Below, piece by piece: positions 32,892-41,817 of a DNA stretch of 64,000 nt. The notes under the pieces are model-generated. The model had not been told where the DNA came from and did no database searches. It saw nothing but the letters and a program-made list of their open reading frames with translations. The position numbers were made by a program, and so were the translations under genes. The first letter of the stretch is position 1. Every line of letters begins with the position of its first letter. Source of the stretch: Candidatus Xianfuyuplasma coldseepsis (GTDB lineage Bacteria > Bacillota_I > Bacilli_A > Izemoplasmatales > Izemoplasmataceae); NCBI RefSeq assembly GCF_014023125.1, contig NZ_CP048914.1:62001-126000 (forward strand), written 5' to 3'.

Positions 32892-33040
32892 TTCATCACC
32901 ACCGAAAAGAATAGTTTCTACTATAACTATATCATACAGAATGAAACTGCTCAACTCAAGCTGTATAAACTTATAATATTTACATTTTAGTTATTCACCT
33001 AGATGCTCTATTGATCTATCGAGTCATGCAAACTAAAAAA

Positions 33041-33106
33041 CGAGAATTCATAAAAGCCATATTGAGCCATTATTTTCTCGTTTTATGTACTAATGATGGA
33101 GTTGAG
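33041..33106 (-). repeat. ssrA-end repeat R1 (most decayed)
   Basis: Hairpin CGAGAA/TTCTCG (33041-33080) followed by GTACTAATGATGGAGTTGAG, 18 of 20 identical to the corresponding tmRNA 3' end complement. The outer limit of the array. Confidence 0.65.
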
Positions 33107-33205
33107 AGTCCCTAATCAATCCCCTCATCCCTGCCAAAAATTACAAATTAAAAGGTACCTTATTACATCAGTTTGCAAAAGCTACAACAAGCCACTAGAA
33201 GGCAA

Positions 33206-33880
33206 TTACTGTATTCTATTGAACTTTCTTCTTCTAATGGTAATAACTATGATTATCACTATTACAAGAGTTAAAAATAATCCATATATACCAAACATCA
33301 ATAAGGGCATATAGTTCATTGGGTTAGACCATCCAGCGCATCCATTCCCAATAGCCTCTTCTCCAAACTCTTCAGTAGTTTCATCAAAAGTATGAGCTAC
33401 AGAACCAAAATCTTCACCTTCACCATAGTATCCAAAATCATCTTTGTTGTATATTGATGAAACTTTGATTACCTTACCATCATCATCAAAAACTATGATT
33501 TTATACTCTTGAATGGTGTTTTCACTCATAGCAATAAACTCATGATTCCAACCAGATTCCCAAACATCTATATCGCCTGAGTAATGAGCTTTATAACTTA
33601 CCCAATCACCTTCTTCTAAAAATGCAAACGTTTCATAACTTGGATGTTCCATAATAAACTGATTATTCACAGTCTCTTGGTAATATCCGGGATAGTCTAC
33701 TTTATTGAATAGCAAGTCATAGAAATACTCAGGAGAATTATCAAACTCATCTCCATCAACTGTGATTAATGTTGTATCTCGATATATAACAGGGCTACAT
33801 GCACATACATTTGTTAAATCAACTCTAGTCAATACCATAAATATCCCTACCAAAACTAACAGTGTTCTGTTATTCCACAT
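33206..33880 (-). CDS. Cassette A cargo: secreted protein with C-terminal membrane anchor
   Basis: 224 residues from ATG 33880 (AGAGG 8 bases upstream). N-terminal signal sequence ending near VCACS (Cys-containing, possibly a lipobox), acidic extracellular region (EDFGSVAHTFDETTEEFGEE) and a C-terminal helix MLLMFGIYGLFLTLV-type with RRRK stop-transfer. Not recognised. It is the only gene between repeats R1 and R2. Its promoter has TATAAT close upstream. Confidence 0.7.
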   Translation of the reverse strand: MWNNRTLLVLVGIFMVLTRVDLTNVCACSPVIYRDTTLITVDGDEFDNSPEYFYDLLFNKVDYPGYYQETVNNQFIMEHPSYETFAFLEEGDWVSYKAHYSGDIDVWESGWNHEFIAMSENTIQEYKIIVFDDDGKVIKVSSIYNKDDFGYYGEGEDFGSVAHTFDETTEEFGEEAIGNGCAGWSNPMNYMPLLMFGIYGLFLTLVIVIIIVITIRRRKFNRIQ

Positions 33881-33971
33881 CTGCATCACCTCTGACTCAT
33901 ATTATATCATATCAAAGACTATAATTATTTTGAAATCAAGCCAACTAAAAAAGTTTTATTCCAAACAAAAA

Positions 33972-34060
33972 CCGAAGAATCAATACACAGCTATATTAGC
34001 TGATAAACTCCTCGGTATAGTGTACTATTGGTGGAGTTGAGTTTGGATCAACCACTGTCA
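33972..34060 (-). repeat. ssrA-end repeat R2
   Basis: Hairpin 33972-34015 (CCGA...CTCCTCGG), 30-bp site 34012-34041 (25 of 30 identical to that of ssrA) and element-side 19 bp TTTGGATCAACCACTGTCA at 34042-34060, identical in R3. Confidence 0.85.
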
Positions 34061-34259
34061 CCTTTCATTTAAACACTGTAAATACTTGATAACTCGACAT
34101 TGTTCGAAATTTTCATAAAGTCTTAACAAGTTCACGAGCAGTATCACAAATAAATCCAACTAATGACATACGATGCATAGCAAAGAGGTAAATCTATATA
34201 TTGTTTATTCTTTTAATTGATCTATACTTATTGTATAATCAATAAAGGGGTTGGTTTAA

Positions 34260-36200
34260 ATGAGAAGAGTAATAACCTTGGTACTTCTTTCATTCATTAT
34301 ATTGGTAATTTCTGCATGTGGGTTAGGAACAGAAATTAATAAACCCGACTTATGTGGTTCAATTGATTTGGAAGAAAATCAAGAATGTTTTGATGAAATT
34401 GTATATAACCCTCACTATGAAGGTTTAGATTTTGTCATATACAAATTAGATGTACTTCCTACAGTAGGAACTGATGATATAGTTGATATGGGCGAATATG
34501 ATGGCAAATCGTATTATTTCAGTTCAGGTACACATTACCAGTTTTATAAAGCAGTAAAAGAAGGAGTTACAATTGATTTATTACAAGCTATTATGGATGG
34601 ATGGTTCACACTAGAAGATATTGTCAATGATTTTAATATTGAAGAATTGCAGTCTCAAGAAATTGTAAATATTGAATGTGATAATCCTAGAGAAACATAC
34701 TACGAAGGTGTTTGTCAAATTGTAGTGGATGAAGAATTATTATTTAAAGTTCAAGAAATAAAAAATGCTATGCTAGGAGAAACTTCTGAATTATCAATAA
34801 TTTCTTCACCAGTGCTACTTGGTAATTCATCTTTGTATGGTAGAATATATTCAGCTCCTAGAGTTGAATTATTATCAGCCATTAAACCATTTGATAATGA
34901 TGCTGAATGGATTCATATACAAGCAAAACATTACGAACTTTTAGAAGAAATTGTTCTTAATGGGTATCAGTCAGGAAACTATGAAAACCCAATGGATTTT
35001 ATTACAAATGCAGAAGATTTAGTGCAATGGTTTAATTTTGAAGGAAGCCAGGAACTTAATTTAATTATTGATACTCAAGAAGAAACACTGTTCTCACGAA
35101 TTATTGAGTACTCAGATATTGAATTAACAGATGCTGTACATGTTGAGACTGTTTATACTGAGTTAAATAGTGAAAATGAGATTTATTTAGAACGATATCT
35201 ACAAAATTTAAAAGTTGACAGCGTAGATGCTGAAGTATTTTATGAAAATTATGGGTTATTTACTTTTGGTTATGAATCAAATGATATTGCATTTAATAAA
35301 TATCAAGGAAGTTTATTAGATGCCAATACATCTGTTTTATTTACAGAAAATTATAATCTTTATAGTTATAGAATTAGATTCTTTAACGATCAGGAACAGG
35401 TGTATTTAGAAGGAACTATAAATGATTTAAATGGTCCAAAGAAAAATGTTGTATCTAGATTTAATGAGTTAACATTGCAAAGTAGTCTAACAAATAGTGA
35501 TATAGCTGAAATGTTAACATTATCATACTATGCTAGTAAATATTACCTTGGAGATAATGCAGAGATTATCACAGGAACTACTTTAAGATTAGATACTACT
35601 AAACTTGATTCTCTCTTTTCAGTAATTCCTGATATTAAATACCATATTAGTAGACTCAATAGCACACCGAGTAGTCAAAAGAATGCGTTAGAACACTTAA
35701 ACAATGTAGAGATTAACGGAGAGTTCTTTGATCTTATTAATGATAATAATGAGTTAGATCTTACCAACTTCAAATATCAATACTTAATAGCATCTAGAAA
35801 TGCTCAGGAAGATTACGATAGATATAAAGAAAGATTACAAAATTATGAAGAAACCGGAAATTTTACATATTTAAGAGATTTGCTAACTTCAATTTATGAC
35901 TTAAGATATGCTATTAACCAAGATCCTACTCTAGTGAATGTAGTTACAGATGATACTTTAGAATATTCTATTCTCCAGCCAGAACTAACAATAGAGTATA
36001 TTTATTATACTGATAATGCTGGACCAAATGATATTGAGAATGTAGCAAGTATCATAATGAATGAACTGAATGTTAGATATGATTATATTATCAATAACGA
36101 AAATACGATTTTTAATTTAAATTTTATGGGACAACCAATATATTTTATGGATTCGGGAGAGTTCTTGCTATTAATTGAATCAAGATTATATGTAGATTAA
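34260..36200 (+). CDS. Cassette B cargo: large lipoprotein
   Basis: 646 residues. Lipobox VISACG at about 17-22 after a basic start and hydrophobic core. The mature part is acidic, mixed helical and strand, without a domain I recognise. RBS AAAGGGG and TATAAT about 30 bases upstream of the start. The sole gene between R2 and R3 and the only cargo gene on the plus strand. It has its own terminator (36258-36298). AT-rich codons compared with the core genes. Confidence 0.75.
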   Translation: MRRVITLVLLSFIILVISACGLGTEINKPDLCGSIDLEENQECFDEIVYNPHYEGLDFVIYKLDVLPTVGTDDIVDMGEYDGKSYYFSSGTHYQFYKAVKEGVTIDLLQAIMDGWFTLEDIVNDFNIEELQSQEIVNIECDNPRETYYEGVCQIVVDEELLFKVQEIKNAMLGETSELSIISSPVLLGNSSLYGRIYSAPRVELLSAIKPFDNDAEWIHIQAKHYELLEEIVLNGYQSGNYENPMDFITNAEDLVQWFNFEGSQELNLIIDTQEETLFSRIIEYSDIELTDAVHVETVYTELNSENEIYLERYLQNLKVDSVDAEVFYENYGLFTFGYESNDIAFNKYQGSLLDANTSVLFTENYNLYSYRIRFFNDQEQVYLEGTINDLNGPKKNVVSRFNELTLQSSLTNSDIAEMLTLSYYASKYYLGDNAEIITGTTLRLDTTKLDSLFSVIPDIKYHISRLNSTPSSQKNALEHLNNVEINGEFFDLINDNNELDLTNFKYQYLIASRNAQEDYDRYKERLQNYEETGNFTYLRDLLTSIYDLRYAINQDPTLVNVVTDDTLEYSILQPELTIEYIYYTDNAGPNDIENVASIIMNELNVRYDYIINNENTIFNLNFMGQPIYFMDSGEFLLLIESRLYVD

Positions 36201-36257
36201 AGATAAGACTAACCTTGAACTAGTTTGTTAAAAACAGACACCATTAAGGATATTCAG

Positions 36258-36298
36258 AAGAGCTTACTTCCGATAGACAATCGGTGGTAGCTCTTTTA
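36258..36298 (+). terminator. Terminator of the cassette B lipoprotein
   Basis: AAGAGCTTAC.TCCGAT/ATCGG.GTAGCTCTT imperfect hairpin followed by TTTAATTTTT. Confidence 0.75.
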
Positions 36299-36456
36299 AT
36301 TTTTCTTGCAATCGGTTGTAATTGTAACAGTATATGTACTCAGATACTATAGAAATCGTCATGAGCATCAATTAATTATTAAAAAAAATTATCTACACAC
36401 TATTCTTTAGTACTTTTTTGCACTTTATTTGTAATATATTCAAAACAAATAAAAAG

Positions 36457-36546
36457 CCGAGGAATCTATAAACGGCTTATTTAAGCCATTAAATTCCTCG
36501 GACGCGGGTACTATTGGTGGAGTTGAGTTTGGATCAACCACTGTCA
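36457..36546 (-). repeat. ssrA-end repeat R3
   Basis: Hairpin CCGAGGAAT...ATTCCTCGG (36457-36501), 30-bp site 36498-36527 identical to ssrA at 41450-41479, and element-side TTTGGATCAACCACTGTCA (36528-36546). A further ~60 bp left of the hairpin is similar to R4. Confidence 0.9.
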
Positions 36547-36553
36547 GCAATAG

Positions 36554-37252
36554 CTATTGTTCAACATCTTTATTGTATAAGCAACCCTGTTTAACATCTT
36601 CAAATGACACTTGAAACTCATATTCTTCATTCAATAGATGAAATTGATTTCGTTCAAGAATTTTCTTAGTGTATACATCATCACAAAAAATTATTGATTG
36701 GTAAATTGCTACATTGTAATGTAATTGAATATAGTCAATCATTAATGTAATCAACACATCAATTTGATTATCATCGATTAGTCTTTTCTCATAAACTTCG
36801 AGAGTTATGATTGATTTATTGTCAGAAACACTAAAACCAAATGTACCAACTTCATTTTCTTCAACAACAATCATAAATAAATGTGAAAACTTCGTTATTG
36901 AATGTGAAACGAAGACTTCTATACTTTCAATATCTAGACCTTGCTCATTATAACTGTAATTTGTAAATCGATTAAACCATTGATTCAACAGATTAACATC
37001 TGTCCATCTAATGCTTCTAACTAATACATCATTTTTGCTAATAAGTACTTCCTGTTCTTCCAACTGATTGCTTCTAAGATAATCAATTAAATTATTCTCA
37101 CTTGTTATGGTAAATAAATGTCCTTTCTCATTTGTATAGACATCTGTAACCATCCCATTTAAAAGTTCCACAATTGATTCTCCATAGAATTCAGGATGTG
37201 GATAATGCTTTTTCACTAATACTCTTGGTACAATAACTTCGATACTTTTCAT
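36554..37252 (-). CDS. Cassette C cargo: GNAT-like protein
   Basis: 232 residues. Residues about 75-225 have a GNAT-like order of strands and helices (LVRSIRWTDVNLLNQWFNRF; MIVVEENEVGTFGFSVSDN; TKKILERNQFHLLNEEYEF), but the acetyl-CoA loop is degenerate. The first 70 residues are a separate small domain. AGGAGG precedes the ATG. First of three minus-strand genes between R3 and R4, although gaps suggest separate transcripts. Low confidence in function. Confidence 0.55.
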   Translation of the reverse strand: MKSIEVIVPRVLVKKHYPHPEFYGESIVELLNGMVTDVYTNEKGHLFTITSENNLIDYLRSNQLEEQEVLISKNDVLVRSIRWTDVNLLNQWFNRFTNYSYNEQGLDIESIEVFVSHSITKFSHLFMIVVEENEVGTFGFSVSDNKSIITLEVYEKRLIDDNQIDVLITLMIDYIQLHYNVAIYQSIIFCDDVYTKKILERNQFHLLNEEYEFQVSFEDVKQGCLYNKDVEQ

Positions 37253-37331
37253 GGTATCCTCCTGGCGTTTGCCAATTTAATTTACAGGTTTTACCTGCAT
37301 TACCCAAGTACCAAGTATGATATTAATTTCT

Positions 37332-37706
37332 CTAGTTAGCTTCAATTGCTAATTTTTCTACTTCACTTAAAACTTCTGGTAACTCATCTTTGATTTGGAA
37401 CAACTCTTTTTCCAATTTTTTTGGAACTTTAACTTTTCCCTTTTCGATTGTGTCAACAATATCTAAAAATGCTTTTCTCGCTGCAGGTTTATGCTCTAGA
37501 GCTTTAACAATTACAACTCTAAGTGCTGTAGGACCGTTTTCTAGCACAATCTGTTTTACAGCAGGATACATTTTATTATCAAACCATTCACTAAAATCAC
37601 TTCGGTTTTTATACAATACTATACCACTTGTTGCTCCAGCAATGAATGCGGTGCCAATTGCTGCAGAGAATGCCATAATCACTTTCGAGTCTACTTTTAA
37701 AATCAT
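37332..37706 (-). CDS. Cassette C cargo: small membrane-anchored protein
   Basis: 124 residues. One N-terminal helix (about 9-29, AFSAAIGTAFIAGATSGIVL) and a charged helical remainder (KVPKKLEKELFQIKDELPEV). GAAAGGAG precedes the ATG. Not recognised. Confidence 0.65.
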   Translation of the reverse strand: MILKVDSKVIMAFSAAIGTAFIAGATSGIVLYKNRSDFSEWFDNKMYPAVKQIVLENGPTALRVVIVKALEHKPAARKAFLDIVDTIEKGKVKVPKKLEKELFQIKDELPEVLSEVEKLAIEAN

Positions 37707-37773
37707 TTCAATTATCTCCTTTCAATACCCTATTTTTTTCACCTTCAATATTAGAAGTTACCATATAACATTT

Positions 37774-38658
37774 TTAGTTACTATTATATCCAAATGGCGA
37801 GTTTATTGTGTTCATTACTCGTTTCCAGTATTGCTCTCTATGAATCACAGTATCTTTATGAGAGTTAAATGGTAAAACTTCAAGAATTGTATAGTTGAAG
37901 TTCTTTTCAATATACTTCATTCCTTTTTCCGGGTCATTTACTATTCGTTTTAGTTGCTTATTTGGATAATAAATTCCAGATTCCTCTTCCGAAGCATCAA
38001 ACCCATTTTCTAAATATGCTTTCCAACGTCCATAAATGCCTTGTGATCCATATGCAGATCCGATATACTTTTTCCCATTAGAAGAGTCAAATATCATATA
38101 AACTCCATTTACTGAGGACAATGGGTACATCCATTCATCGTAATCAATATTTCGTTTTAATGTATTAAAGTCAAAACTTGCATTATCATAGCCTGGAAAT
38201 GGTGTAGTACCATATTCTGTCTGCAGAATTTGAACTACTATACACTTTCCAATATACCTAGATAAATTAAATACATATCGTGCAAATGCATTCCCTTTTT
38301 CAACTTCAATAATTAATCTACCTAAAAATCCATTATATTCCTCTAAGGGCTCATAATCACAATGAGCATAGTCCGGAACATGTGTGATTTTACTTACAGT
38401 TATAAGTAGGTATCTATTATTATAGCCATTTAGTCTGGCAAATCCAAAGACAATATTGCCCTCTCTAAAATTCTTCTGTTTACCATAGTTAGACCAGAAC
38501 GTAAACTCTACATTTCTATTGTTTCTATCACTTTTCAACCAAGCGTCTATACATGATTCCTTCCCTTTACCAAGAGTCATATTAAGTACTATTTTTGAGT
38601 TTGGTATTATTTCTGGATCAATACGTAATACATCTTTCAAAAAAATCTCTTTTGACAT
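37774..38658 (-). CDS. Cassette C cargo: GIY-YIG nuclease-like protein
   Basis: 294 residues from ATG 38658 (AAGGGG upstream). The last ~100 residues form a GIY-YIG domain: NGVYMIFDSSNGKKYIGSAY (V-Y and Y-I-G), a Arg in YGRWKAYL and the metal-binding Glu in HREQYWKRV. The N-terminal 190 residues are an unrecognised domain often seen with this nuclease. Such nucleases cut DNA in repair, homing or defence; in a mobile cassette defence or mobility is possible but unproven. Confidence 0.8.
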   Translation of the reverse strand: MSKEIFLKDVLRIDPEIIPNSKIVLNMTLGKGKESCIDAWLKSDRNNRNVEFTFWSNYGKQKNFREGNIVFGFARLNGYNNRYLLITVSKITHVPDYAHCDYEPLEEYNGFLGRLIIEVEKGNAFARYVFNLSRYIGKCIVVQILQTEYGTTPFPGYDNASFDFNTLKRNIDYDEWMYPLSSVNGVYMIFDSSNGKKYIGSAYGSQGIYGRWKAYLENGFDASEEESGIYYPNKQLKRIVNDPEKGMKYIEKNFNYTILEVLPFNSHKDTVIHREQYWKRVMNTINSPFGYNSN

Positions 38659-38864
38659 AAAATCCCCTTCTTTCATAAAAACACTCAAAAACTATTATCA
38701 CGATAGTGACATTAAATGCTAATTCCAATTTTATCACAATCTCTGTTTGTATTCAATCTTGATAATGCAGTTCAGTTTACTGTAACAATTTAAAAAACAT
38801 CGATACACTATCGTTCGGTACTTTTTTACCTATTATTCGTAATTTCTACAAAATAAATAAAAAA

Positions 38865-38954
38865 CCGAGGAATCTATAAACGGCTTAATTTAGCCATTAA
38901 ATTCCTCGGACGCGGGTACAATTGGTGGAGTTGAGTTTGGACCAACCCCTTTCC
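38865..38954 (-). repeat. ssrA-end repeat R4
   Basis: Hairpin 38865-38909 nearly identical to R3, 30-bp site 38906-38935 (29 of 30 identical to ssrA) and element-side 19 bp with 15 matches to R2/R3. About 60 bp left of the hairpin resembles R3. Confidence 0.9.
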
Positions 38955-39009
38955 CAATAATAAAGAGCAATCCTTAGGCTTGCTCTTTTTGATTTTTTTT
39001 CCTTTTTTA

Positions 39010-41199
39010 TTAATCTTGTCCATTTGATACTATATCTTCTATTGAATAGAGCAACAGCGCACCTTGGTATGTGTTATACCTTTCAGCATGTACAATTAGA
39101 TAATCACCTTCTGTATTGATTCCTGAGCCAAAGTAACTACCATCCACTTTTGCTATGAGAATAATATCTTGAGATAAATCACTACTTGTACTACTAAGAT
39201 TAACTACACCAATAGCACCAGCTCTATAAGACGCAATTATTAAGTAGTTATTATAAATATCGTATCTTAAGTATTCCAAGAAATCAGAACTAACTGAAAG
39301 AGTTTTATTATTACTCTCATCTACGAGATCAAATATTTCAAAGACAGTACTAGTGTCATGATCACCTGAAACAATTATTAGTTTGTTTTCCTCGATTCGA
39401 ATATCGCTGTATGAATAGGTTAGAGTGATTGATTTCTTATAAGAGTTGTCATCAAACTTATAAAGATCAACCGATGTAAAGTCATCATAATATTCAGATC
39501 GATATCTGTACATAACAAGTATATAATTATCAAATATATTGTAATGCTGATATATTGTTTCTCCATTAATCATTTGTGATTCTAGTGGTATGATTTTTAC
39601 ATTTTCTTGATTCATAATATCAAACATATAAATTGAGCCTCCTGTAAATACAGTAAGATTTTCACCTTTGAGAATCACTCCATTTAAAAACTCATTTTCA
39701 AGATTCACACTGAAAGTTTTCACAAATAACTCATCATCATATCTCCTCAATGTTACAACACCATCTCTGTCAGCAACTGAAAAATATCCATTTTCTAAAT
39801 TATGAAATTCAGGAGTGTAAAAATTGTTGTTCTCATCTTGCATGTTTGGAATTTGATATTCATAGTTTGAATCGTCAAGCTTATAAATATACATATTCTC
39901 ATTGAACTGTTCTTTGTAAGTCACGACAAAGTAGTTTTCATAAAAATAACCAGCATTTATTTCAGTTTTTGCAGATATGCCATCATAGTTTATTGTCCTC
40001 TTGTACTCTTCATCACTCATCTTATATATGTTGAGTTCTGCTTTACCCGTTATTTCATTAAACTCTGATGCAAAAATGTAATCATCATGAGTATTAAACG
40101 ATTTTGCAATAAATATTCTCTCATAACTCGCATCGTTCAGATCATACACATAATATCTAGTATACTTCTCATTTCCAAAATATACTTCACTATCAGAATA
40201 CACTACTATATAGTTATTGATCGATAAAAGGCTCTTTCCAAAATGTGAGCCATCATCTTGTAATGGATTACTGATTATTCTTTCGTAATTACTATCACTG
40301 AATTTATAAACGTATACCGAACCAACATTATTTAAATAAAAAGGAGCACTCGTAATTAAATAATCATCGTATACTAAAACATCTCTCCCAAATACATCTC
40401 GAGGATATAGATTTGAGCCTGTAATCAATCTTTCAGGTATAAATTCTGCATAGATATTGATGTCATAATTAGGCATAATATCTGGCAACATTTCGCTCCA
40501 TCCAGTAAACACATGATTTTCTAAAGCAGGTAATGTTATTTCACTCGTACCAAAATCATAGTAAATATAAAACTCGTCCCCAATTTCGACACCATGATTC
40601 TCACCTGATGAAAAGTTTTCTGTATATAACACTTCATCTTCAAAGCCAAATATTGTAAGACTATAACTATTTAACTCACACAAAACCGTATACTCTAAAT
40701 CATTTCCAGGCATTGTTGGTGGAAGATTAAATTCAACCTTTTGTGTGTAATCTTCACCACATAGACCATTAGGTATCATCTCATATTCCAAGATACTTCC
40801 AAACTCATAGCTAACTTTACTTAAAAGGTCTCCTTCTAAACTAATATATGATATCTCAAATACACCTATCTCATATATAGCCTTCAGAGTTACATCCTCA
40901 TATACTGAAACTTCATCCAAAGTAACATCCCAACCAATAAACACATATCCATCCTTTTCTGGATTACTAGGATACTGAGAGTTCTGTAGTTCCTCCAAAG
41001 TGTACACTTCAATATTTTCAATAATTCTCTCATCATAATCTAAAAAAGTTATTGTCTTCATATTATCTTCACGATTCACACATGAACCATCTACATATAC
41101 CTGTTCGACAGAACACTCACCAAAATCATCTTTGCTTTCACATCCTATCAATGTGATTGAAACTACTAATAATATTGCTACAAAATATATCTTCTTCAT
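39010..41199 (-). CDS. Cassette D cargo: lipoprotein with InlB-type repeat and beta-propeller-like body
   Basis: 729 residues from ATG 41199 (GGGGTGGG upstream). Lipobox TLIGCES. Residues about 45-110 form a Listeria-Bacteroides (InlB B) repeat ending DGYVFIGWDVTLDEV...DVTLKAIYE; a second copy-like segment ends HVFTGWSEMLPDIMPNYDIN. The remaining ~460 residues consist of repeated ~45-residue units of type 'YxYxLDDSNYEY' (for example VYVYKFSDSNYERI, LYKFDDNSYKKSI), suggesting a beta-propeller. A surface adhesin or binding role is inferred. The only gene between R4 and ssrA. Confidence 0.75.
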   Translation of the reverse strand: MKKIYFVAILLVVSITLIGCESKDDFGECSVEQVYVDGSCVNREDNMKTITFLDYDERIIENIEVYTLEELQNSQYPSNPEKDGYVFIGWDVTLDEVSVYEDVTLKAIYEIGVFEISYISLEGDLLSKVSYEFGSILEYEMIPNGLCGEDYTQKVEFNLPPTMPGNDLEYTVLCELNSYSLTIFGFEDEVLYTENFSSGENHGVEIGDEFYIYYDFGTSEITLPALENHVFTGWSEMLPDIMPNYDINIYAEFIPERLITGSNLYPRDVFGRDVLVYDDYLITSAPFYLNNVGSVYVYKFSDSNYERIISNPLQDDGSHFGKSLLSINNYIVVYSDSEVYFGNEKYTRYYVYDLNDASYERIFIAKSFNTHDDYIFASEFNEITGKAELNIYKMSDEEYKRTINYDGISAKTEINAGYFYENYFVVTYKEQFNENMYIYKLDDSNYEYQIPNMQDENNNFYTPEFHNLENGYFSVADRDGVVTLRRYDDELFVKTFSVNLENEFLNGVILKGENLTVFTGGSIYMFDIMNQENVKIIPLESQMINGETIYQHYNIFDNYILVMYRYRSEYYDDFTSVDLYKFDDNSYKKSITLTYSYSDIRIEENKLIIVSGDHDTSTVFEIFDLVDESNNKTLSVSSDFLEYLRYDIYNNYLIIASYRAGAIGVVNLSSTSSDLSQDIILIAKVDGSYFGSGINTEGDYLIVHAERYNTYQGALLLYSIEDIVSNGQD

Positions 41200-41228
41200 T
41201 ATTACCCACCCCATTTTTTGTTTAACAT

Positions 41229-41257
41229 ATTATATCATATTCTTACAACTCCCTCAA
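41229..41257 (-). promoter_or_regulatory. Promoter of the cassette D lipoprotein
   Basis: Minus strand TTGAGG, 17-bp spacer, TATAAT; 30 bp before the start. The spacer GGAGTTGTAAG recurs near 22005-22015. Confidence 0.65.
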
Positions 41258-41406
41258 ATCCCACTGTTTATCGGCACAAATGAGTTTATTTTGGAAGCGG
41301 GTTTAGGTCGTCAAAAATTGCACCAAACACTATTGCAATAGGGTTGGAACGAAAAAACGGCTGATTCGACCCTCAAAAACACCTATATTTTTGGATAAAA
41401 TAAAAA

Positions 41407-41453
41407 CCGAGAATTCTGATAACGGCTATATATAGCCATCCTAAAATTCTCGG
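41407..41453 (-). terminator. tmRNA terminator (repeat R5)
   Basis: CCGAGAATT...AATTCTCGG hairpin followed on the minus strand by TTTTTATTTT. It begins 14 bases after the tmRNA CCA end and is the array copy next to the functional gene. Confidence 0.85.
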
Positions 41454-41466
41454 ACGCGGGTACTAT

Positions 41467-41817
41467 TGGTGGAGTTGAGGGGATTTGAACCCCTGTCCAA
41501 AATAGCCGAATCTACATTTTCTACATGCTTAGTTTGTCCAATTGTTTAATGGGCAACCCGGGAACAAACAACCGTATCACACACGAGTCTTATTAAATTC
41601 TATCGATCGCTTAAGACGGCAGCAATTGAGTATATCCTAGATCAGCTGATCTCGACGCCTAACACTCTAGGCAGTGCAAGGTGGAGAACGCGCTATTTAT
41701 TAAGCAGCGTAAGCTATATTTTGGTTTCCGGTTATATTTAACCTAGTGTTTTTACAGCCACAACGCTGGCATGCTTATCTAGTCCTAAACTACCCTGTCG
41801 AATCCATAAACAACCCC
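41467..41817 (-). ncRNA. ssrA: Transfer-messenger RNA
   Basis: 351 nt. The tRNA-like ends pair as GGGGTTG (5') with CAACTCC plus ACCA (3'), with the G-U at the third pair used by AlaRS; T-arm AGGGGTTCAAATCCCCT; 5' GGATTCGACAGG is the standard tmRNA start. The tag frame ends GNQNIAYAA then TAATAA (stop at 41700-41702), close to the Bacillus NQNVALAA ending. Several pseudoknot-like repeats follow. It lies in the order rnr-smpB-small ORF-ssrA. Short ORFs seen within it are not genes. Confidence 0.95.

Follow-up and report, generated by a model that had tools for sequence, protein, structure and literature searches.

How does the 3′ end of ssrA, the gene for transfer-messenger RNA (tmRNA), come to be repeated behind itself in a row of direct copies that separate unrelated DNA segments, and what moved these segments there? 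The question is raised by an array in Candidatus Xianfuyuplasma coldseepsis zrk13 (Izemoplasmatales), a deep-sea, wall-less bacterium and cultured member of Candidatus Izemoplasma (PMC8397711). The window, i.e. the whole stretch of 64,000 nt analysed here, is part of a single contig of 1,958,905 bp (genome G000; G001 and further G numbers designate genomes of relatives). Taken as a whole, the data make it probable that small non-autonomous integrative cassettes have stacked up at ssrA in this array.

The initial annotation of the window described a 30-bp repeat of the ssrA end in five direct copies, each joined to a hairpin, with four segments of unrelated cargo in between, and all of this holds. 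In order of distance from ssrA, the 30-mer at 41450-41479 (30 of 30) recurs with 29 (38906), 30 (36498), 25 (34012) and 19 (33077) identical bases, and outside the array neither strand of the window contains a match above 20/30. The fifth copy, weak by its letters alone, was found by a covariance model of core plus hairpin (R1), which was built on 21 sites including window sites 1-4 and whose E-values are rough owing to a short calibration. Exact matches to the 13-bp core TGGTGGAGTTGAG in the 1.96-Mb genome number four, all of them within the array; beyond ssrA, in tmRNA direction, exact copies lie at 38923, 36515 and 34029 and a copy with one change at 33094. Behind the core, every site has an arm, which reads TACCCGCGTCC in sites 1-3, and a terminator hairpin. 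This hairpin is a conserved, covarying structure: 91% of the alignment cells pair, versus 33-51% in slid alignments, and 12 of the 16 base pairs have changed on both sides, well above shuffled and slid controls, although the structure was derived from the same alignment, which itself was not fitted to it. The tmRNA was the sole Rfam match above the gathering score. Rather than merely 30 bp, the repeat unit comprises the tmRNA 3′ end and a conserved cassette 5′ end of up to ~175 bp.

The comparison was extended to 90 genomes of the order, many of them metagenome-assembled genomes (MAGs), with one genome per species. A search for site plus hairpin, as suggested in the annotation, revealed arrays in many relatives, at ssrA and also at tRNA-Val. 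Within the genus, extra ssrA-type sites number six over 11.5 kb in G001, three in G014, three (exact) in G021 and one in G015, while the reversed 13-mer has no match in the 90 genomes. Named contigs bearing the same site are Izemoplasma or Mollicutes MAGs; the viral contigs searched do not contain it. Two core matches in G003 (C1:1119544 and C1:1120324) are devoid of arms and hairpin and were judged to be due to chance. Whole units recur in different species and positions. A cassette of 2301 bp that encodes a GntR regulator, an ABC ATPase and a permease forms the fifth unit in G001 and the first behind ssrA in G019; the two copies are 90.9% identical over bases 2-2301, and on the left the G001 copy adjoins the end of another cassette and the G019 copy the tmRNA body. 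The G001 array begins, next to ssrA, with a 1894-bp element encoding a 316-aa tyrosine recombinase, which is present in direct tandem with copies identical at 1894/1894 positions. Polymorphism of exactly bounded units between species and positions shows the cassettes at ssrA and tRNA-Val to be mobile units, transferred between species as well as between positions. The annotation's view of repeated site-specific insertion of small, recombinase-less cargo units is thus borne out as far as species comparison allows, since units are polymorphic, breakpoints fall in the site and one unit is exactly and recently duplicated.

The second target was recognized by weaker clustered R1 matches behind tRNA-Val genes (GAC or TAC). 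The 10-bp core of these sites is (C/T)TCTCCACCA, GGATACGGGTAAACTTCG is an example of their left arms, and the hairpin has the same design as at ssrA; the cargo includes nucleotidyltransferase/HepT pairs, AbiEii, Fic and helix-turn-helix (HTH) proteins. A cassette of 2353/2351 bp (93.8% identity) heads the array in G016 and comes after another unit in G018, and a 3546-bp cassette (90-95%) occupies the first place in G018 and the third in G016, where the copy was read on two contigs. When tRNA-Val cassettes were compared with 300-bp flanks, homology started at base 289, 1-2 bases from the start of the core. The window genome has a tRNA-Val array of its own (Table 1), in which two nucleotidyltransferase/HEPN-type pairs are found and two sites are separated by a 42-bp gap, i.e. 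an 'empty' cassette.

Over both targets there are 34 complete cassettes (33 plus the identical twin of G001 c1), counted in loci chosen for having sites. They measure 0.8-7.7 kb (median 2.3 kb) and mostly contain 1-3 genes, frequently of defence and toxin-antitoxin types; according to genome-wide recombinase searches, a recombinase is encoded by the G001 twin pair only. Cassettes with unlike cargo have common 5′ ends of ~130-175 bp, and their 3′ ends belong to a few classes recurring between genera, e.g. GGACGAGGGTATCGTTCAGGGACC and TTATTATTGGGAAAGGGGTTGGTCCAAA. The 5′ ends of G001 c3-c5, G019 c1 and G021 c3 carry the palindrome CCCTATTGCAATAGGG and, at about +165 counted from the core, ACCCGCGTCC once more; both might be extra protein-binding sites. 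The cargo of the G001 Fic cassette is found in G016 with a different 5′ end, and a 1894-bp cassette in G002 contains the phosphotransferase cassette of G021 together with a toxin-antitoxin-like pair that in G021 belongs to the neighbouring unit; cargo can also switch ends or merge. In G002, an ssrA-type cassette also lies behind the 3′ part of leuS on a short contig (C151; L147:1-3180), not visibly behind ssrA. Related sites with the core CTCAGCTCCAC(C/A)A occur in another family of the order (G058:C107; L231:6810 and 14573), which suggests that the system extends beyond this family.

Cassettes are AT-rich (29-33% versus 37% GC). No common cargo was found among the four of the window, the likeness of c2 and c3 being confined to the first ~131 bp. 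Judging from its similarity to UzuA, the GIY-YIG protein of c2 is probably anti-phage cargo. The recombinase searches placed no tyrosine or serine recombinase within the array.

Table 1. Features of the ssrA array (window coordinates) and the tRNA-Val array of the same genome.
Feature	Position	Strand	Description	Evidence
ssrA	41467..41817	-	tmRNA, tag GNQNIAYAA; target gene and anchor of the array	ARAGORN; Rfam RF00023
Site 1	41397..41479	-	ssrA 3′ end, core CTCAACTCCACCA, right arm TACCCGCGTCC, terminator hairpin; c1 5′ end	91.7 bits (R1)
Site 2	38855..38935	-	core, hairpin; c2 5′ end	99.9 bits
Site 3	36447..36527	-	core, hairpin; c3 5′ end	98.4 bits
Site 4	33962..34041	-	exact core, diverged right arm, hairpin; c4 5′ end	71.7 bits
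Site 5	33030..33106	-	decayed core CTCAACTCCATCA, hairpin; distal end of array	40.3 bits, E 3.4e-6 genome-wide
Cassette c1	38923..41466	-	2544 bp	exact core copies at bounds
c1 cargo	39010..41214	-	734-aa lipoprotein, FG-GAP-like and List_Bact repeat	Pfam PF14312 E 6.5e-5; TIGR02543
c1 3′ end	38936..38963	-	pseudo T-arm TTATTATTGGGAAAGGGGTTGGTCCAAA; class common to G001 and G021 cassettes	
Cassette c2	36515..38922	-	2408 bp	core copies; first 131 bp 84% identical to c3
c2 cargo	37774..38688	-	304-aa GIY-YIG protein, UzuA-like (anti-phage)	PADLOC UzuA E 1.6e-40; PF01541 E 0.001
c2 cargo	37332..37706	-	124-aa protein, no family match	
c2 cargo	36554..37252	-	232-aa protein, weak DUF6984 match	PF22480 E 0.005, below cut-off
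Cassette c3	34029..36514	-	2486 bp	first 102 bp 83% identical to 5′ end of G028 SCC-like ssrA island
c3 cargo	34260..36200	+	646-aa lipoprotein, opposite orientation, no family match	
Cassette c4	33094..34028	-	935 bp	bounded by site copies
c4 cargo	33206..33889	-	227-aa secreted/membrane protein, no family match	
tRNA-Val(GAC) array	G000:C1:224720-234516 (L224:6720-16516), outside window		cassettes of 2186, 3295, 42 and 4198 bp	

We have combined these data in a model whose steps (a circle, a crossover, an action in trans and the identity of the enzyme) we infer as follows. In its free form, a cassette would be circular and have a single attachment site (attP), composed of the pseudo T-arm at the left end, the 13-bp copy of the tmRNA acceptor end, the right arm and the terminator hairpin. 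A recombinase acting in trans would join attP to the ssrA 3′ end, with the crossover in the left part of the core. The tmRNA gene would thereby acquire the terminator of the incoming cassette, while its CCA end and function would be kept, as an identical 13-bp stretch comes with the cassette. The displaced old tail would be the next site, such that insertions stack with the newest beside ssrA; this order is supported by the perfect tandem copy found next to ssrA in G001 and by the decay of the window sites with distance. As to the enzyme, it is most likely a large serine recombinase of the Ccr/DsiB type, borrowed from an element with the same ends that resembles the staphylococcal cassette chromosome (SCC), a tyrosine integrase being the alternative. 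We consider it highly probable that the cassettes are site-specific and mobilized in trans, and give the Ccr/DsiB-type enzyme about an even chance.

Ends that are the same as, or related to, those of the cassettes also occur on autonomous elements, in G001, as described above, and in G028, where an SCC-like island of 22.46 kb is found at ssrA (G028:C5:48370-70833; L085:2370 to L149:4833). The island has a 5′ end of the window type (83% over 102 bp to c3) and the 3′ end GGACGCGGATAAGTTTCAGGGACC, and carries Cch (DUF927 plus Cch HTH), two large serine recombinases, RadC and helicase/nuclease defence genes. The best NCBIfam match of both serine recombinases is CcrB (E 1e-34 and 2e-47), below the family cut-off. 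It is because the window cassettes have ends in common with this island that a Ccr/DsiB-type enzyme in trans is favoured; sites of ~52 bp with distal arms also have the size of a serine-integrase attP. The absence of an integrase noted in the annotation must accordingly be limited to the window array, since elements with the same or related ends carry a tyrosine (G001) or a pair of Ccr-type serine recombinases (G028) in relatives. Candidates for the integrase elsewhere with a matching site that it envisaged are found at ssrA in G001 and G028, but none could be linked to the site in G000. Here, four tyrosine recombinases are encoded: two are Xer-like, a third has type I restriction genes nearby and the fourth a replication-type gene. 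There is also a single large serine recombinase. The latter is a stronger Ccr match than the G028 pair (CcrB E 2.5e-92), though still short of the family cut-off; it has a counterpart of 73% identity in G016 and is part of an element beside lgt (G000:C1:1187131-1194612; L289:4131-11612) that also contains SSB-like and RadC genes; the same module is present in G016 (C31; L291). A host-encoded ssrA integrase in G000 was rejected on these grounds, no matching site having been found for the serine enzyme.

A number of results weigh against mobilization of the cassettes in trans by a Ccr-type enzyme. In the lgt element we found no recognizable site, direct repeat, ends or link to the ssrA site. None but Xer-type recombinases are common to all array-bearing genomes, and a large serine recombinase was undetected in G003, G014, G018, G020 and G021. 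DUF927/Cch, considered as a marker of autonomous elements, was rejected as such, being confined to G028 among the 90 genomes, and the ssrA-proximal element of G001 uses a tyrosine recombinase. Polymorphism was assessed by comparing species represented by one genome each. Finally, site arms pair no better within than between cassettes at ssrA (p 0.75) and only marginally better at tRNA-Val (p 0.036), which leaves attC-like folding unsupported and the likeness to integron cassettes drawn in the annotation without a basis at the level of the sites.

A tDNA-targeting tyrosine integrase of the 316-aa kind might move the cassettes in place of a serine recombinase. This enzyme is encoded within the exact tandem element at ssrA in G001, and the 5′ end of that element is shared (89% over 131 bp) by the G001 Fic cassette c6, which has no integrase. 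Its nearest relatives outside the family are three related tyrosine recombinases in G103 (L186, L187 and L188), located directly behind ssrA, tRNA-Ser and tRNA-Arg and followed by similar gene sets; a further one belongs to a G017 island behind a tRNA array. We nevertheless regard this alternative as rather unlikely, given that most cassettes, including the window's, differ from the G001 element in the 5′ end and the long T-arm identity (GGGGTTCAAATCCC in that element), and that most array genomes contain no close homologue of the enzyme. Tandem tyrosine recombinase genes similar to recombinase-in-trio elements were also seen in G058 (C109:2014-4488, three in a row, and C15:1967-3426). Alternatively, the units could be immobile leftovers of full islands inserted serially, i.e. 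cis-mobilizable elements (CIMEs). Accretion of CIMEs, described as decayed integrative and conjugative or mobilizable elements (ICE/IME) in the ICESt1 family, is how such tandems are usually explained (PMC5704250) and has been proposed for Dehalococcoides (PMC3146451); the decay of sites away from ssrA would agree with it. Compact units of similar size with intact ends, however, recur end to end in other species and positions, which in-place decay does not produce, and almost none of the 34 complete cassettes contains integration genes; we regard decayed islands as an unlikely explanation. A check for origin by deletion from an ICE or IME revealed the 5′ end that c3 has in common with the G028 island, and no internal remnants.

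Two further readings fare worse. Copies of 80-175 bp could recombine, and ordinary duplication of the ssrA terminator might then have trapped genes by homologous recombination. Such a process would hardly yield unrelated cargo with boundaries exact across species, ends not derived from tmRNA that recur between genera, or the same design at tRNA-Val, and is very improbable. A true integron, with folded attC sites and an integron integrase, would fit arrays of single-site cassettes carrying toxin-antitoxin and defence genes. This reading was rejected, as the arms show no covariation within cassettes and IntI is missing: G000 has no integron integrase, and the G001 enzyme scores 71 bits on integrase_gron against a cut-off of 265. 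The breakpoint also lies in the tDNA core and not in an arm, making an integron of this kind barely conceivable.

The preferred reading of small cassettes mobilized in trans has precedents. In Dehalococcoides, tandem islands downstream of ssrA are split by a ~20-bp ssrA repeat; 15 of 31 are without an integration module and the others encode DsiB, a CcrB-like serine recombinase (PMC3146451). With tandem units bounded by ssrA 3′ repeats and about half of them lacking an integration module already published, the kind of arrangement is not new. The vcr islands, on the other hand, measure ~12 kb and carry reductive dehalogenases, in contrast to the units of 1-3 genes with conserved terminator ends found in Izemoplasmatales, where tRNA-Val arrays exist as well. 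As to the six-gene dsiBA integration module of some Dehalococcoides islands, a comparison of gene content showed two CcrB-like recombinases and RadC in the G028 island. SCC elements insert at the 3′ end of rlmH and form tandem composites with ccr-less units or remnants. The arrays resemble them in the 3′-end target, the tandem order, the recombinase-less units and the direct repeats and arms at both ends, and the G028 island adds Cch, a Ccr-like pair, RadC and defence cargo; yet the target is ssrA or tRNA-Val, the window array has neither ccr nor cch, and the enzymes score far below the Ccr cut-offs. Like CIMEs, the units are bounded by att sites, lack integration and transfer genes and are stacked behind a target, beside which G001 has an integrase element, but they are compact, have conserved common ends and recur whole in other species. 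Arrayed single-site gene cassettes with similar cargo classes are reminiscent of integrons, from which the arrays differ in having no integron integrase or attC, a terminator for each unit and a functional RNA gene as anchor. Islands at the tmRNA 3′ end of Pseudomonas, marked by the 14-bp repeat CCCCGGCTCCACCA, also carry defence cargo and no autonomous transfer genes, but they far exceed the cassettes described here in size, and every one of them encodes its own intY and alpA (PMC12595487).

A literature search, mostly of open-access papers, revealed no such system in Izemoplasmatales. The annotation's statement that the arrangement had not been described therefore stands for this group but not for the kind. 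What is new is the much smaller size of the recombinase-less cassettes, their conserved terminator ends, two anchored arrays per genome and exchange within a bacterial order. Tentatively, this could amount to a lineage-wide, integron-analogous exchange on tDNA 3′ ends, in which recombinase-less cassettes of 1-3 genes circulate among Izemoplasmatales, stack at ssrA and tRNA-Val in one cell and rely on Ccr-type recombinases, either resident or visiting, to move them in trans. The finding would mean that a gene store of the integron kind can develop on functional RNA genes where no integrase is resident, here in free-living wall-less relatives of Mollicutes, and it connects SCC-like elements with small defence and toxin-antitoxin cassettes. 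Since the host has been cultured, movement of recombinase-less cassettes in trans is directly testable.

The arrays may also explain why metagenome assemblies of Izemoplasmatales break just behind ssrA. Contig ends in MAGs lie at a median of 546 bp downstream of ssrA versus 10,986 bp upstream, the downstream distance being the shorter one in 17 of 19 cases (sign test, p 7e-4), which is indirectly consistent with repeats or variable content at this position.

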